Assembly: GCA_031268065.1 (NCBI GenBank)
Contig: JAIRXX010000137.1
Span: 1-10,675, forward strand
Reading direction: 5' to 3'
Length of the DNA: 10,675 nt
From: Propionibacteriaceae bacterium
GTDB taxonomy: Bacteria; Actinomycetota; Actinomycetes; Propionibacteriales; Propionibacteriaceae
The position numbers and the translations under genes were made by a program. Positions 2,084 through 9,699 of the stretch are shown piece after piece. Numbering within the stretch: the stretch's first letter is position 1; each line of letters starts with the position of its first letter. The notes under the pieces were generated by a model. That model had not been told where the DNA came from and made no database searches. It saw nothing but the letters and a program-made list of their open reading frames with translations.

Positions 2084-3247
2084 TCACTGCTCGGACAGCG
2101 CGATCAGCAGCGATTCCATCGCCAGCAGCGCGGTGACATTCGCCATCAACTCCCGGCGGCAGGCCAGGATGGCGTCAAGCTTGCGCAGGGTGGCCGCTGG
2201 GGTGGAGCTGGCAGCCAAATGTTGGATGTCGGAGTTGAATTCGAGGTTGATCAGGGCTTTCCCCGAATCGGTCTGCCGCATCAGCACGTCGCGGTAATAC
2301 GAGGTCAGCTCGGTGAGCACGCGATCCAGGCAGTCGCGCTGCAGCCGGGTGGAGCGTTTCTTCTGCTGCTCCTCCAATTCCGCCAGCGCCGCCGCCGCAT
2401 GCCGGGGCCTGGTCCTGGACCCGGAGATGCCCAGCGTCTCTTGCAGCCGCGCCCACTCGGCGGCGTCCAATTCGGCGGTGATGGCCGCCGCTTCGGCGGT
2501 GGCGGCCTGGACGAGGGCCTGAGCCGAATCCAGACATGCGCCCAGCGAATGGAGCTTCGCCGGGATGGACAGCATCTCCACCCGGCGCTCCCTGGCTTCG
2601 CTGCTGGACGCCAGCGACCTGGCCCGGCCAATGTGGCCTTGGGCGACGCGGGCGGCGAATTCGGCTGTCGGTGGATCGATCCCGTCCCGGCGCCGCAGCA
2701 ATTCGCTGATCGCCTGCTCGCTGGGAGTCACCAATTCGGCCATCCGGCAGCGGGAACGGATGGTGACCACCACATCTTCCGAGGTGGGGGCGCAGAGCAT
2801 CCAAACTGTGCGGGGAGCTGGCTCTTCCAGACTTTTCAACAGCGCGTCCGCCCCGCGCTCGGTCACCCGGTCGGCGTCTTCGATCACCAGGATTTGGTAT
2901 GGCCCGGTGGCTGGGGCCAGCGCCGCGCTGCGGACCAATTGCCGCACTTCGTCCACCCCGATGGACAGCTTCTCGGTGCGGACCAGCGTCACATCGGGAT
3001 GGGTGCCGCCGCGCACGCTGAGGCAGGTTTGGCATTCGCCGCAGCCCCCGCGCGGGCATTGCAGCGCGGCGGCGAAAGCTTTGGCGGCGTTGGAGCGCCC
3101 CGAGCCGGGCGGGCCGACGAACAGCCAGGCGTGCGTCATCGCGTGCGGCTCCTGGGAAACGGCGCGGCGCAGCACGGACACAAGTTTGCCTTGGCCGACT
3201 AGATCGGCCCACACCCCAAGGCCCGCTTCCGGGACAGCTATGCTCAC
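2084..3247 (-). CDS. holB: DNA polymerase III, delta-prime subunit
   Basis: Clamp-loader subunit that works with DnaX and delta to load the beta sliding clamp at the replication fork. The AAA+ domain shows the region GPPGSGRS (45-52), a P-loop-like sequence with Arg in place of the invariant Walker A Lys, as I recall for actinobacterial delta-prime proteins, which are not thought to hydrolyse ATP. A zinc-module cysteine set follows (Cys64, Cys69, Cys72, Cys75), then the Walker B-like LVIEDADRV (120-128), ADALLKSLEEP and the SRC motif (165-167). The rest, to residue 387, is the helical lid and C-terminal collar. The start is a GTG; the first 20 residues (ending GVWADLVGQ) match the usual N-terminus of the family. 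No clear Shine-Dalgarno is visible. It lies about 60 bases after tmk in the same direction, as in many actinomycetes. Confidence 0.93.
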   Translation of the reverse strand: MSIAVPEAGLGVWADLVGQGKLVSVLRRAVSQEPHAMTHAWLFVGPPGSGRSNAAKAFAAALQCPRGGCGECQTCLSVRGGTHPDVTLVRTEKLSIGVDEVRQLVRSAALAPATGPYQILVIEDADRVTERGADALLKSLEEPAPRTVWMLCAPTSEDVVVTIRSRCRMAELVTPSEQAISELLRRRDGIDPPTAEFAARVAQGHIGRARSLASSSEARERRVEMLSIPAKLHSLGACLDSAQALVQAATAEAAAITAELDAAEWARLQETLGISGSRTRPRHAAAALAELEEQQKKRSTRLQRDCLDRVLTELTSYYRDVLMRQTDSGKALINLEFNSDIQHLAASSTPAATLRKLDAILACRRELMANVTALLAMESLLIALSEQ

Positions 3248-3930: not shown

Positions 3931-6570
3931 CTACTTCTTCTTGGCCCGCGAGCCAGCGCTGGCCCGCCGTTTCGGCGCCGCCCTGGGGGGTTGGGCGCGT
4001 TTGTCGGCCAGCAACTCGGCGGCCCGCTCCAGCGTCAGTTCCGCCACCGAGTCGGTGCGCCGCAGGGTGGCGTTGGTCTGCCCGTCGGTGACGTACGGCC
4101 CGAAGCGCCCATCCTTGACCACCACCGGATTTCCAGTCGCTGGATCGCTGCCCAACTCGCGCAGGGGACCGGCGGCAGCGCTGCGCCCGCGCACTTTCGG
4201 CTGGGCGTAGATGGCTTGGGCCTGCTCCAAGGTGATGCTGAAAATTTGTTCCTCGGTCTCCAGCGAGCGCGAATCGCTCCCCTTTTTCAGGTACGGCCCG
4301 TAGCGGCCATTCTGGGCGGTTATCTCCTCGCCGTCGGCGTCCTTCCCCAACACTCTGGGCAGGCTGAGCAGCGCGGTGGCCTGGTCCAGGGTGACCGATT
4401 CGACCGACATGGATTTGAACAGCGATGCGGTCTTGGGCTTGGCTGATTTGGGGGCGTCCTCGGGAAGCACCTGGATCACATATGGCCCGTAGCGCCCGTC
4501 CTTGGCCACTATCGCATAGCCGGTCTTCGGGTCGGTCCCCACCGGGCGCTCCGGATCGGCGGGGCGGTCCAGCAGTTCCCGCGCGTATTGCCCGGTCAGC
4601 TCGTCGGGCGGCAGCTCGGGGTCCACGCTGGCGCGGTGCCCCTCGCTGTCCTCGACGTTGGTGCCGTAGCGCCCCACGCGCAGGTCGATGCCGTCCGCGA
4701 TGGGGAAGGTGGAAAGTTTCCGGGCGTCGATGTCGCCCAGATCGCTGACTAGGGCCTGCAACCCGCCGTCCTCGAAGTAGAAATCGGTGAGCACGGCCAG
4801 CCGGGCGGCGTTGCCATTGGCAACCTCGTCCAAGTCCTCTTCCATCTGGGCGGTGAATTTGTAATCGACCAATTTGGAGAAGTGCTCTTCCAGCAGCCGG
4901 GTGACCGCGAAAGCCAGCCAGGTCGGGACCAGCGCCTGCCCCTTCTTGAATACGTAGTCGCGGGCGGTGATGGTGCGGATGATCGCGGCGTAGGTGGAGG
5001 GGCGGCCGATTTCCAATTCCTCCAGTTTGGCCACCAACGACGGCTCGGTGTAGCGCGATGGCGGCCTGGTCTGGTGCGCGGAGGGGGTGAAAGACTCCCC
5101 GGTGAGCCGCTGGCCGTCCACCAAAACGGGCAGCCGGGCCTGTTCGTCGTCTGTTGACTGGTCGTCATCGACAGATTCGACGTAGGCGGCGAGGAACCCG
5201 GCGAAAGTGATCGTGCGCCCGCTGGCGGCCAAGGTCGCCCGACCGGCGTCGATGCTCTTTTCGCCCAACTCCAGGCTGAGGCGCTGCGGCAGGGTGGCCC
5301 CGATCTTGACCGAAATGGTCTGCCCCTCGGCGTCCTTCATCTGGGAGGCCAGCGTGCGTTTCCAAACCAACTCGTACAGCCGGTATTGGTCGCCGCTGAG
5401 TCCGGTCTGATTCGGCGCCTGGAAGTCGCCAGCGGGGCGGATAGCCTCGTGCGCCTCCTGCGCGTTCTTGACTTTCGAGGTGTAGGCGCGGGGGCGTTCG
5501 GGGAGGTATTGGCCGCCGAACAGCTCTTTCACCTTCTTGCGGGCCAGGGTGGTCGCGGTGTTGGAAAGCGTCACCGAATCGGTGCGCATATAGGTGATGA
5601 AGCCGCGTTCGTACAACTCTTGGGCCACCGACATCGTGCGCTGCGCGGTGAAACCGAGCTTTCGCCCAGCCTCTTGCTGCAAAGTGGTGGTTCGGAACGG
5701 GGCGTAGGGACGCCGTGAATAGGCCTTGGATTCCACCGAGGTCACGGCAAAGCTGGCGTCGCCCAGCGCCTCGGCAAGTTTCCGCGCGGCAGCCAAATCC
5801 AATTGGAGCAGTTCGGGCTTGAGCAACTTTCCGGTGGAGTCGAAATCGCGGCCAGTGGCGATACGGTTGGTGCTCACCGCGATGACTTTTGCGGTGAACG
5901 TGGGTGGCTCGGCATTCTCCCCCGCGCCGAGAACGGCTTCGACATCGGCGTAGTCGGCTGGCTGGAATGCGATTCGTTCCCGCTCCCGGTCAACCAAGAG
6001 CCGGGTGGCCACTGACTGCACGCGGCCCGCCGACAGCTTCGGCATGACCTTCTTCCACAACACCGGGGAGACTTCGTAGCCGTAAAGCCGGTCCAGGATG
6101 CGCCTGGTCTCCTGGGCATCCACCAGGTCGGTGTCCAGCTCGCGGGTCTTCTCCACCGCATCCCGGATGGCTTCTTCGGTGATTTCGTGGAAGACCATCC
6201 GCTTCACCGGAATTTTCGGCTTGAGTTCGTCCAGCAAGTGCCAGGCGATGGCCTCGCCCTCGCGGTCCTCGTCAGTGGCCAGGAAGAGTTCGTCGGCCTC
6301 GGAGAGCTTGGCTTTGAGGTCGCGCAACGTCGCCCGCTTCTCAGCGGGCACCACATAGACCGGCATGAACCCGGCGTCAACGTTCACCCCGGTGCGCGCC
6401 CATTTCTCGCCCTTGTACTTGGCCGGCACCTCGGCGGCGGCGGTGGGGAGGTCGCGGATATGCCCGCGAGATGATTCGACGACGTAGCCTGGCCCCAAAA
6501 TTTTACCCAAGCTGACCGCCTTGGTAGGCGACTCCACTATTACCAGCCGATGCGGTCCCGCTTTAGCCAC
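3931..6570 (-). CDS. topA: DNA topoisomerase I (type IA), actinobacterial form
   Basis: Relaxes negatively supercoiled DNA by transient single-strand cleavage through a 5'-phosphotyrosine. The 879-residue protein opens with the Toprim domain: VIVESPTK (Glu13) and TDEDREGEAI (Asp100, Asp102, Glu104). The catalytic tyrosine is Tyr327 in GFITYMRTDS. KLSAGRVQSVATRLLVDRE (178-196) and the IGRPSTYAAI block (521-530) are typical family motifs. The C-terminal part has no zinc fingers. Instead it has repeats built on R(Y/F)GPY at 693-697, 756-760 and 822-826, plus a more degenerate GRYGTNV at about 633-639, as in mycobacterial TopA. It ends in a Lys/Arg-rich tail (about 857-879) that probably binds DNA. 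The start is a GTG preceded by AGGAAG with short 4-base spacing. It heads the topA-tmk-holB run. Confidence 0.97.
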   Translation of the reverse strand: MAKAGPHRLVIVESPTKAVSLGKILGPGYVVESSRGHIRDLPTAAAEVPAKYKGEKWARTGVNVDAGFMPVYVVPAEKRATLRDLKAKLSEADELFLATDEDREGEAIAWHLLDELKPKIPVKRMVFHEITEEAIRDAVEKTRELDTDLVDAQETRRILDRLYGYEVSPVLWKKVMPKLSAGRVQSVATRLLVDRERERIAFQPADYADVEAVLGAGENAEPPTFTAKVIAVSTNRIATGRDFDSTGKLLKPELLQLDLAAARKLAEALGDASFAVTSVESKAYSRRPYAPFRTTTLQQEAGRKLGFTAQRTMSVAQELYERGFITYMRTDSVTLSNTATTLARKKVKELFGGQYLPERPRAYTSKVKNAQEAHEAIRPAGDFQAPNQTGLSGDQYRLYELVWKRTLASQMKDAEGQTISVKIGATLPQRLSLELGEKSIDAGRATLAASGRTITFAGFLAAYVESVDDDQSTDDEQARLPVLVDGQRLTGESFTPSAHQTRPPSRYTEPSLVAKLEELEIGRPSTYAAIIRTITARDYVFKKGQALVPTWLAFAVTRLLEEHFSKLVDYKFTAQMEEDLDEVANGNAARLAVLTDFYFEDGGLQALVSDLGDIDARKLSTFPIADGIDLRVGRYGTNVEDSEGHRASVDPELPPDELTGQYARELLDRPADPERPVGTDPKTGYAIVAKDGRYGPYVIQVLPEDAPKSAKPKTASLFKSMSVESVTLDQATALLSLPRVLGKDADGEEITAQNGRYGPYLKKGSDSRSLETEEQIFSITLEQAQAIYAQPKVRGRSAAAGPLRELGSDPATGNPVVVKDGRFGPYVTDGQTNATLRRTDSVAELTLERAAELLADKRAQPPRAAPKRRASAGSRAKKK

Positions 6571-6665: not shown

Positions 6666-8279
6666 TCAGTTTACCGGGGAACTGCCCAATGTCACCGCTG
6701 CTGAATGCTCAACTCCGGAGGGGTCGATCCAAGTCACTTGGACCACAGTCCCCGGCTCCAACGCCCGAATCACATTGGCCAGATTGGTGTCTCCCCTGAC
6801 TTCGGTGGAGTCGACCTGGGTCAGCGTCGAACCCGGCGCTATGCCGGCCTGGTCTGCGGGGCTGTCTTTGGCGATTTCTTGGATTTGGCGGCCCAGCCGA
6901 TGTCCTCTTTCCGGCACCACGGTGATCCCGATATAGCCCGCCGGGCCGACGCGGACACTGCCCTCGTCGTGTCCGGCCTCAATGACGCGGACTATGGCCA
7001 TCGCGTCAGCAATCGGGATGGCGAAAGACATCGATTCTTTCTGAGACCCTGCCGTCGTCATTCCGGTGACTTGGGCTTGGGAATCGAACATTGGGCCGCC
7101 AGAATCGCCGGGAACGGCGTTCGCATTCGACGCGATCAGGCCTTCCAGGTTCTCCTCCGCGCCCCAGGGGGAATCGGAACTCACCGTCAAAGATTGGTCC
7201 ATCCCGAGCACTTGGCCGTTGGCCCGGATCAGCACGCCGCCGCCCTCGGCATTGCCGACCACCGAGACCGCATCGCCATTGTGCAGGGTGTCGTAATCCA
7301 AGGTCACCGTTTGCAGGCCGTTGGCGTCGTCCAATTGCAGCAGGGCTACGTCGCGTTGCGCGTCAAAGCCCACAACGGTTGCGGAATATGTCTTGCCGGT
7401 GTCGACGATGGTGGCGGTCAGCGATTCAGTTCCGGCAACGACATGGTAGTTGGTGAGGATTTTCCCTGCAGCATCGAGCACCATTCCGGTCCCGGCGCTT
7501 TGCGAATTGCCGGAAATGCCCCAGATGAGCACGATCCCCTTGGATTGCTCGGCGGTCACCGAGGTGTCCGCATTGCGGTAGTTGTCGTCCGACCGCTGGT
7601 TCGGCTGCTGGTTCGGCTGTACGGGCTGCTCGGGCTGCGTCACCGAAGGCCGCTCCGTCTGGCTCAAGCTGGAGATTAGCTGGCCGCCCACGGCGAACGA
7701 GCCGATGCCGAGCAGGAAGGACACCAGCATGGCCAGCACCGTCATCCCCCGGCGTTGTTTGGGTTTGGCGGCTGGGGGTGTCGCCGCTGGCGGCTGCCAT
7801 TGCGGGTAGCCGCTGTAGCCCAGCGGATAGCCGGTGCTGGTGGGCGCTGCCGGAGGCGGGGGCGGGGGCGGGGTAAAGGCATTCCCCCAGGTGTTCGACT
7901 GGGTTGGCGCCGCCTGGCTGGACTGGTAAGCGGGCTGTCCGTCCGGCGCTGGGGCTGTGGAGGCAGTCGCCGCACTGGCCGCAATGCCCGGACCGCTGGC
8001 CCAATGCTGGGCTGCCGTCGGGAAGTTGTACGTGGACGGCGCCCAGGCTTGGGACGGCTGGGCAGGCGGCGGCCAAGCCTGCGCGTCAGCAGTAGGCGGC
8101 GGCCAGGCTTGGGCTTGCCAGGCTTGGGGTTGCACCTGGCTTGCACCTGGCGCGGGTGGCCAAGCTTGAGTGCTGGGAGCCGGAGTTTGGGCTGCCGCAG
8201 GGGATGGCGAAATCTCCGCCCCAGTGTTGGGCGGTGTGCTCTGATCGCCTGCTAAGGGCTTGTTCTCAAACTCAGCCAT
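6666..8279 (-). CDS. Membrane-anchored HtrA/DegP-like trypsin-fold serine protease with PDZ domain
   Basis: Probably cleaves misfolded or specific envelope proteins outside the membrane. The 537-residue protein has a Pro/Gln/Ala/Trp-rich cytoplasmic region (1-175) with repeated QAW(PPP) units and seven consecutive prolines (137-143), then a basic KPKQRR, one transmembrane helix (about 179-204) and a Gln/Pro linker. The protease domain (about 238-435) has an intact triad: His279 in LTNYHVVAG, Asp310 in AQRDVALLQL and Ser393 in PGDSGGPMF. A PDZ domain (about 445-530) follows, with the carboxylate-binding-type segment GYIGITV. The ATG start is preceded by AAGGAG at ideal spacing; an in-frame ATG 18 codons upstream is less likely. 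The upstream neighbour is a clear paralogue lacking the triad. Overall layout resembles mycobacterial PepD/HtrA-type proteins, but the exact orthology is not established. Confidence 0.9.
   Translation of the reverse strand: MAEFENKPLAGDQSTPPNTGAEISPSPAAAQTPAPSTQAWPPAPGASQVQPQAWQAQAWPPPTADAQAWPPPAQPSQAWAPSTYNFPTAAQHWASGPGIAASAATASTAPAPDGQPAYQSSQAAPTQSNTWGNAFTPPPPPPPAAPTSTGYPLGYSGYPQWQPPAATPPAAKPKQRRGMTVLAMLVSFLLGIGSFAVGGQLISSLSQTERPSVTQPEQPVQPNQQPNQRSDDNYRNADTSVTAEQSKGIVLIWGISGNSQSAGTGMVLDAAGKILTNYHVVAGTESLTATIVDTGKTYSATVVGFDAQRDVALLQLDDANGLQTVTLDYDTLHNGDAVSVVGNAEGGGVLIRANGQVLGMDQSLTVSSDSPWGAEENLEGLIASNANAVPGDSGGPMFDSQAQVTGMTTAGSQKESMSFAIPIADAMAIVRVIEAGHDEGSVRVGPAGYIGITVVPERGHRLGRQIQEIAKDSPADQAGIAPGSTLTQVDSTEVRGDTNLANVIRALEPGTVVQVTWIDPSGVEHSAAVTLGSSPVN
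8130..8151. repeat. 11-bp perfect tandem duplication inside the protease gene
   Basis: TTGCACCTGGC occurs twice head to tail on the plus strand, within the part coding for the QAW-rich cytoplasmic region. The unit is not a multiple of three, so loss or gain of one copy would shift the reading frame. Confidence 0.6.
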
Positions 8280-8382: not shown

Positions 8383-9699
8383 TTAGTTGAACTCGCTTAG
8401 CTGGACTTCGACGCTGGCTGACTTCCGCTCTCCGGCGGCGTTCGTCCAGGACAGCTTCACTTGCGTCCCCGGCTTGAGCATCCGCACCACGTTGTCGGCG
8501 TCCTGCAATTCTCCGAATTTGTCACCGTCGATGGACACCAGGACGTCGCCTGCTTTGAGGCCAGCTTCCGCAGCCGGTCCGTCGCTGACTGATTCCACCA
8601 ATGCGCCAGCCTCGCCCTCCTGTTTGGGGGAGAGGTCCAAGCCCAGATAGCCCGGACGGCCTAAGTGCAGCGTGGCTGGCTCAGCCTCCTCGGCCAAGAT
8701 ATTGTCGGCGGCTGCGGTGACTTCGCTGATCGGCAGCGCGAAGGCGCTGGCGCCAGGCCCAATCGCCATCGCGGTTACTTCGGAGTATTCGTTCGTCAAA
8801 ACGCAGCCTGGGTCTAGTGTCACATCCAGCAATTCCCAGACATCGGGGACTTTGGTCTCAGACCCGTCACCGGAGAAGTCGATGGCAGCGGCGGTGGCAT
8901 AACTGATGGATTCAACCAGATAGCCATATTCCTGCCAGCTGCAGGCGTAGTAAGGGGTGCTGTCTCCATCCACGTCTTCCGCCGTCGTCACCGGTGTCCA
9001 GCCGTAGTCCTCGTCCACACCAAGTATCGCTATGTCTCGGGTGGGGTCGAAACCGAGCAGCGTGGCTTCCGCTTCCCACCCTGAAACAGTGACCCTGCTT
9101 GAACCGGCCAACGCGCTATAGCTGGTGGCGATCAGGTTGGAGCTGAGCGGCACCCCGCCGCTGGTGAGGGAGTCGTCGGAGAGGGCTTCGTTGGTGATAT
9201 CGAGGGAGAGCAATTCGGGGGCGCTGATGTGATCGCCGTCGGGGTAATCAATGGATGAGGGAGGTAGCGGGGCATCGGCGATGAAAGAGGTGATGACGTT
9301 GAGCGAGATCACCGCTGCCAGGATCGCCATCACGACCCGGCCAGGCGTTACTTTCCGGCGCTTGGGTACCCAGAAACCCGGCATTGGCCCGCGCGGCTGG
9401 GCATTCGCCATTTTGCCGCTGGCGGTGGCGGCTGGATTGTAAGTGGCGAAGGTGGGTGGACTGGCTGTGGGCTGTCCACCGTATTGCGGTGCTGGCTGCG
9501 CTGGGTATGCCTGCGCCGGGCTGGGCGGAGTCGGGGCTGACTGCAAGGTTTGGGCTGGCTGCGGGAGCCGGTAGCTGTCCGCTTCGGTCATCTGCGGCAA
9601 GTCCTGGACTGCCTCGACCTGGTAGCCGCCGTCCGGTGTCTGGGTCAGCCCGAATGGGTCAGCGGGAAAGAACGGGTCAGCTATGTCTTTTTCAGCCAT
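8383..9699 (-). CDS. Membrane-anchored trypsin-fold pseudoprotease with PDZ domain
   Basis: A 438-residue paralogue of the adjacent HtrA-like protease. It has a Pro/Gln/Tyr-rich cytoplasmic region (1-115) ending in PKRRK, a transmembrane helix (about 121-142), a degenerate trypsin-like domain (about 175-335) and a well-kept PDZ domain (about 345-435). Direct comparison shows IATSYSALAG where the neighbour has ILTNYHVVAG, so the catalytic His is Ser195. FDPTRDIAIL keeps the Asp (Asp222). LDPGCV stands where the neighbour has GDSGGP, so the nucleophile is Pro297. It should therefore be unable to cleave peptides. The PDZ half aligns end to end (GYLGLDL, GPAAEAGLKAGDVL, VVRMLKPGTQVKLSW). The only two cysteines, Cys253 and Cys299, flank the dead site. 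The start is the ATG after GAAGG; a longer in-frame reading exists from 9819. The likely role is scaffold, sensor or regulator of the active protease (inference). Confidence 0.85.
   Translation of the reverse strand: MAEKDIADPFFPADPFGLTQTPDGGYQVEAVQDLPQMTEADSYRLPQPAQTLQSAPTPPSPAQAYPAQPAPQYGGQPTASPPTFATYNPAATASGKMANAQPRGPMPGFWVPKRRKVTPGRVVMAILAAVISLNVITSFIADAPLPPSSIDYPDGDHISAPELLSLDITNEALSDDSLTSGGVPLSSNLIATSYSALAGSSRVTVSGWEAEATLLGFDPTRDIAILGVDEDYGWTPVTTAEDVDGDSTPYYACSWQEYGYLVESISYATAAAIDFSGDGSETKVPDVWELLDVTLDPGCVLTNEYSEVTAMAIGPGASAFALPISEVTAAADNILAEEAEPATLHLGRPGYLGLDLSPKQEGEAGALVESVSDGPAAEAGLKAGDVLVSIDGDKFGELQDADNVVRMLKPGTQVKLSWTNAAGERKSASVEVQLSEFN

Follow-up and report, generated by a model that had tools for sequence, protein, structure and literature searches.

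The stretch of DNA analysed here (the window) is an entire contig (C47, 10,675 bases) of a Propionibacteriaceae genome of 2.23 Mb in 385 contigs, with an estimated completeness of ~76%. The genes on its minus strand follow in the order: two ORFs resembling TadE-type minor pilins (their NCBIfam scores were slightly under the cut-off), a degenerate HtrA-like gene (pseudo-HtrA, 8383..9699, 438 amino acids, predicted to be membrane-anchored and PDZ-bearing), a triad-intact HtrA (6666..8279, with His279, Asp310 and Ser393, a transmembrane segment and a PDZ domain), the gene that we take to be topA (3931..6570), which is the conserved downstream neighbour of HtrA, and two further ORFs, presumably tmk-like and DNA polymerase III delta'-subunit-like by their appearance. 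The frame of pseudo-HtrA is intact, as an earlier note on this DNA had stated, from an ATG at 9699 to a stop at 8383, and the start is backed by an orthologue (P0002), because the alignment begins at the first residue of P0002. The ribosome-binding site that had been called good is present (GAAGG upstream of the ATG) but moderate rather than strong; the neighbouring HtrA has AAGGAG. A promoter/terminator scan found no site of either kind between pseudo-HtrA and HtrA; it gave one promoter-like site at 6695-6668 and, on the opposite strand, two terminator-like ones (shuffle mean 3.4).

The N-terminal region of pseudo-HtrA is proline-rich and begins with a tail (residues 1-52; 9544..9699, minus strand, as are all features of this gene) that is predicted to be cytosolic and is conserved among the pseudo-copies. 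It is followed by KRRK and a hydrophobic stretch predicted by hydropathy to be a transmembrane helix (residues 122-140; 9280..9336), by a degenerate trypsin-fold core (residues 182-274 by Pfam, 8878..9156, the fold running to about residue 342), and by a PDZ domain (residues 350-431; 8407..8652) starting with GYLGL, which we take to be the carboxylate-binding loop. The protein would be anchored N-in, with the core and PDZ domain outside. The PDZ domain scored 47.9 bits against PDZ_2 (cut-off 27), more than that of the triad-intact neighbour (37.2 bits), and is as well preserved as had been claimed. The Trypsin_2 score was 24.0 bits, below the cut-off of 27.6 (neighbouring HtrA 85.5, above it), and the TIGR02037 scores of pseudo-HtrA and the neighbour (51.9 and 116.7) were both under the cut-off of 416.2. 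An HtrA fold, i.e., a trypsin-like core with a C-terminal PDZ domain, was predicted in a structure model (mean pLDDT 61; triad-intact HtrAs were included in the input alignment), which superposed on Rv3671c and DegP chains at 2.6-2.8 Å over 183-187 residues. Foldseek gave, among the 50 matches listed, HtrA/Deg/DegS/MucD-type chains with a best E of 9e-16 and whole-length TM-scores of only 0.24-0.34 by query length. The ten-residue pLDDT means were 72-95 in the PDZ region from residue 341 on; the helix (121-140 in the model) had low pLDDT, and the tail formed a short hairpin of middling confidence.

Aligned with the neighbour, pseudo-HtrA has Ser195 (9115..9117) in the column of His279, Asp222 (9034..9036) in that of Asp310 and Pro297 (8809..8811) in that of Ser393. 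The replacement of the catalytic His by Ser and the retention of the Asp, both proposed in the earlier note, are borne out, and Ser195 is identical in both orthologues. The nucleophile is lost as well and its site, LDPGC after a five-residue deletion, contains no GxSG in this stretch, but the proposed change from Ser to Pro297 depends on how the alignment is drawn across the deletion, and both orthologues have Ala there. TSYS (His site), RDIAI (Asp site) and GCV (right after the lost Ser) are common to the three pseudo-copies; with His and Ser absent in all three, none has the His-Asp-Ser triad of HtrA/Do (S1C) proteases. Pseudo-HtrA is almost certainly a pseudoprotease, i.e., a protease homologue that has lost catalytic residues, and its sequence supports the non-catalytic status suggested earlier. 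Another working triad was also looked for. The core of the window copy (residues 158-344) holds no His from which one could be built (its sole histidines are residues 157 and 345), which rules out alternative catalytic residues in this copy; both orthologues carry core His (FSHDG in each, plus one more each), and no core His column is common to all three. Two cysteines, Cys253 (8941..8943) and Cys299 (8803..8805, two residues past the lost Ser), are invariant in the three pseudo-copies, and Cys is absent from 30 of the 31 triad-intact HtrA ectodomains (the exception, L047, has one). The pair may form a disulphide beside the dead active site.

Two orthologues were found: P0002, a metagenome protein of 423 amino acids from JGI, and the protein of another Propionibacteriaceae MAG (G029, isolate Gx481_bin65, contig JAISCH010000331.1), with identities to the window protein of 49% and 46%. 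G029 belongs to the same genus group as the window genome, is ~59% complete and has the same gene order (pseudo-HtrA, HtrA, topA), so that in both genomes pseudo-HtrA lies directly upstream of the triad-intact HtrA on the same strand. Its contig was found by an alignment scan of contigs, which also turned up a single weak match, in a Clostridiales MAG, and its protein appeared as P0003 in a protein search that scored the 7,997 candidates with the most shared words; a single-sequence scan of the genome contigs yielded no relative. When a profile of the three sequences was run against 198 genomes of the family (for many of them, scoring covered only 9 first-look candidates), only two reached orthologue-level scores, the genome of the window with 731 bits and G029 with 768 bits; their copies are themselves part of the profile, and the next match had 94 bits. 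Ten plasmid records matched weakly, each over less than 80% of the query. The frames are intact in the window and G029, and the P0002 protein is intact; frameshifted orthologues, which would have spoken against maintenance, were looked for, and both orthologues were free of frameshifts. The N-terminal tail is 56-57% identical to that of the window copy (29/52 in P0002, 20/35 in G029), and its search in 40 other genomes (G029 excluded) gave no convincing match (best E 0.07). The tail at window 9544-9699 reads DPFFPADPFGL...DGxYxVE.

The triad-intact HtrA is widespread in the genus. Its position beside topA was confirmed on one stretch in 27 genus relatives (L035-L059, L061, L062) and the window, and all 31 non-pseudo rows retain His, Asp and Ser (including L060, whose contig ends before topA, and two copies that are not topA-linked, L063 and, from another genus, L070). 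The HtrA locus was fetched from 27 genus mates besides G029; in two (L042, L046) the upstream DNA was too short, and in none of the other 25, with at least 1 kb readable upstream, was a pseudo-copy found there (E 1e-4). The nearest HtrA relatives (G020 and G021) are among those without it, and in one genus mate (G006, 66% complete) no HtrA match was found. The missing pseudo-copy upstream of HtrA in genus mates suggests that the origin of the gene, or its retention, is confined to a small clade. Tandem HtrA pairs with both triads intact occur in another genus (L086, L087, L088 and L097, from G179, G183, G177 and G178, respectively).

Between the window and G029, pN/pS of the pseudo-copy was 0.57 over the full length (bootstrap 0.50-0.68), 0.59 in the core (0.48-0.75) and 0.45 in the PDZ domain (0.31-0.60), compared with 0.37 overall, 0.18 in the core and 0.36 in the PDZ domain of the triad-intact HtrA; these values are rough, as synonymous changes are near saturation (dS ~1.4) and the protein-guided codon alignment is slightly biased towards codon positions one and two. 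In the N-terminal tail (35 aligned codons) the interval of 0.33-1.64 includes 1. The codon comparison shows purifying selection on the pseudo-copy, in both core and PDZ domain. The order of constraint is inverted between the two genes: the PDZ domain is better conserved in the pseudo-copy (identity 0.53, core 0.46), the core in the triad-intact copy (0.86, PDZ domain 0.70), which means that the constraint linked to catalysis is gone from the pseudo-copy and that on the PDZ domain is left. Three intact sequences and a pN/pS of 0.57 are those of a gene maintained for a function, as had been proposed, in a comparison that comprises three sequences and two fragmentary genomes.

The homology between the two neighbours noticed earlier extends, as described, over core, PDZ domain and C-terminus, at 27% identity (72 of 266 aligned positions; E 4e-20 for the single comparison). 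We nevertheless doubt, from the sequences, that the neighbouring HtrA need be the parent of pseudo-HtrA. Placing the pseudo-copies in one clade with the HtrAs of the window and of G029 was weakly disfavoured (AU p 0.047), and placing them with all topA-linked HtrAs of the genus was not rejected (p 0.33). With a PDZ-only profile, the multi-PDZ protein P0004 (85 bits), L094, an HtrA from another genus (79.5 bits), and L050 (68.9 bits) all scored above the window HtrA (57.7 bits), which counts against a simple local duplication. In the phylogenetic tree the clade of the window pseudo-copy joined L108 and L110 (92/82) and the eight degenerate rows came together (100/99); the grouping with L108/L110 may be a result of long-branch attraction, which is likely in view of branches of 2.5-3 changes per column.

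L108 and L110 belong to a set of further degenerate HtrA-like proteins in the family. A profile survey of the fetched loci aligned 123 HtrA-like ORFs, both window ORFs counted, a sample biased as a rate because many loci were gathered via pseudo-copy profiles: 111 keep His, Asp and Ser, two are the window and G029 pseudo-copies, four are partial, four lack Ser and/or His (L107 HDE, L109 HDV, L108 RDP, L110 SDP), and two have Thr for Ser (L198, G007:C49; L200, G008:C10). One genus contributes L108 (G010:C67), L110 (G023:C59, 929-2194) and L109 (G024:C86, 1125-2600). At L108 there are two adjacent degenerate ORFs (1070-2371 and 2298-3170), the first with R/D/P, the second, downstream, ending without a PDZ domain, missed by the profile and outside the count of 123. 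L107 (G214:C48, 1156-2616, minus strand) is from another genus, as is its relative L106 (G213:C28, 1200-2648, plus strand), which is also degenerate, reads GSSGDDG and was counted, doubtfully, as Ser-keeping; the gene beside each of these two is presumably lactate/malate dehydrogenase-like, named from its translation. L107, L108, L109 and L110 resemble the window copy in that the Asp column is kept and His and/or Ser is lost, whereas L108 and L110 retain a Trypsin_2 signal (33-35 bits) with a weak PDZ domain (~20 bits), the reverse of the window copy. The presence of differently degenerate proteins elsewhere in the family suggests that the loss of catalysis recurred, or predates this pair. The profile found no further HtrA-like ORF in the 8.6-18 kb surrounding each of the five degenerate loci, and no triad-intact HtrA within 18 kb around L108; among the loci seen, adjacency to a triad-intact HtrA is therefore particular to the window lineage, and such pairing is not a general need of degenerate copies. 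These other pseudo-copies, together with the Cys pair, the five-residue deletion, the conserved tail, the His-free core, the conservation across three sequences, the inverted domain constraint, the restriction to a small clade and the doubt that the neighbour is the parent, are additions to the earlier note.

As to function, we consider pseudo-HtrA more likely to be a non-cutting partner of the adjacent HtrA, led by its PDZ domain, than a PDZ sensor acting by itself or a holdase. The earlier note had named regulator, decoy and adaptor of the active enzyme as frequent roles of such pseudoproteases. The PDZ domain of pseudo-HtrA would still bind peptides, C-terminal or exposed, in misfolded or signalling proteins of the envelope; the core, closed and possibly pinned by a disulphide, would be a docking or holding surface; and together these would make the protein an adaptor or modulator that does not cut. 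It could pass clients on to the neighbouring HtrA, enter mixed assemblies with it or sequester activating peptides, and the conserved tail may report or anchor its state inside the cell. The loss of His and Ser in three of three copies, the His-free core of the window copy, pN/pS below 1 in core and PDZ domain, the inverted constraint, the gene order in G029, the HtrA fold of the model and the precedents of MamO and of a dead Bacillus subtilis HtrA all count for this reading. Against it, the gene neighbourhood comes from two of the three copies, those of the window and G029, whose genomes are both fragmentary; the core has changed much faster in the pseudo-copy than in the triad-intact HtrA, so that any interface with the neighbour shows no strong overall conservation; and the degenerate copies elsewhere in the family lack such a pairing in the DNA surveyed. 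We give an adaptor or regulator role in partnership with the adjacent HtrA somewhat less than an even chance of being correct. Unlikely, though with an appreciable chance, is a PDZ receptor or scaffold independent of HtrA, e.g., a membrane-spanning sensor coupling peptides of the envelope to a partner in the cytosol via the tail: it agrees with a PDZ domain better kept than the core, and with a tail that is conserved among the orthologues, lacks a convincing match in other genomes and may fold into a hairpin, but it leaves unexplained why the whole degenerate core was retained and why the gene adjoins HtrA in both genomes of known context, and the pN/pS interval of the tail includes 1.

Pseudo-HtrA might instead be a holdase that protects unfolded exported proteins, a role reported for catalytically dead HtrA of E. 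coli and B. subtilis. In B. subtilis, fitness was improved by an HtrA with Ser changed to Ala, which the authors credit to retained chaperone activity (PMC10715036), and the HtrA fold is retained in our model; the five-residue deletion just before the nucleophile should, however, give a different client cleft, and we consider this function improbable. A plainly decaying gene is ruled out by the codon test and the intact orthologues. Decay of a paralogue under residual constraint would fit the difference in core pN/pS between pseudo-copy and triad-intact HtrA, but it is very improbable given intact frames at 46-49% identity, common substitutions, a common Cys pair and pN/pS clearly below 1. Least credible is cryptic catalysis by other residues, e.g., with Cys299 as nucleophile: this residue is invariant and close to the lost Ser, and both orthologues, unlike the window copy, have core His, yet no His column is shared by the three, and Cys253 and Cys299 co-occur as would be expected for an extracellular disulphide. 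Returning to the non-cutting partner, one may, with low confidence, picture a two-gene envelope device of a small actinobacterial clade, in which a disulphide-locked non-cutting HtrA reads peptides by its PDZ domain and sets the activity of the triad-intact HtrA across the membrane; it would have evolved independently from MamO/MamE, and Propionibacteriaceae would hold several HtrA pseudoprotease lineages of which this is one.

Compared with known systems, the Mycobacterium tuberculosis HtrAs Rv1223 and Rv0983 (HtrA/PepD), which we take to be membrane-anchored, share with the window protein the trypsin-fold core and one PDZ domain and were among the fold matches; these actinobacterial HtrA/PepD proteins are proteases, whereas the window copy lacks His and Ser. 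Among the open-licence papers listed, none dealt with HtrA pseudoproteases of actinobacteria, which does not prove their absence from print. In one survey, 42 of 966 serine protease homologues in prokaryotes, over five families, were inactive (PMC2605481). The nearest precedent is MamO/MamE of magnetotactic bacteria. As stated in PMC4794232, MamO is a degenerate HtrA-like protein (triad positions His116, Asp149 and Thr225) that activates MamE-dependent proteolysis without catalysis, and every major magnetotactic proteobacterial clade examined there evolved its pair of active and inactive HtrAs independently. The window copy belongs to a different phylum, has lost both His and Ser and, with its His-free core, lacks the di-histidine metal site of MamO; the MamO model NF040961 was not among the 23 NCBIfam families listed for the window protein (E up to 1). 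It is L198 and L200 that have Thr at the catalytic Ser column, like the reported MamO. An independent actinobacterial pair, together with the further degenerate proteins of the family, would show that HtrAs spawn non-catalytic relatives outside biomineralization, and would make the regulation of an HtrA by its own dead relative open to direct testing in a two-gene system. Common to MamO/MamE and the window pair is that an HtrA-like protein with a degenerate triad has been kept alongside an active HtrA homologue.
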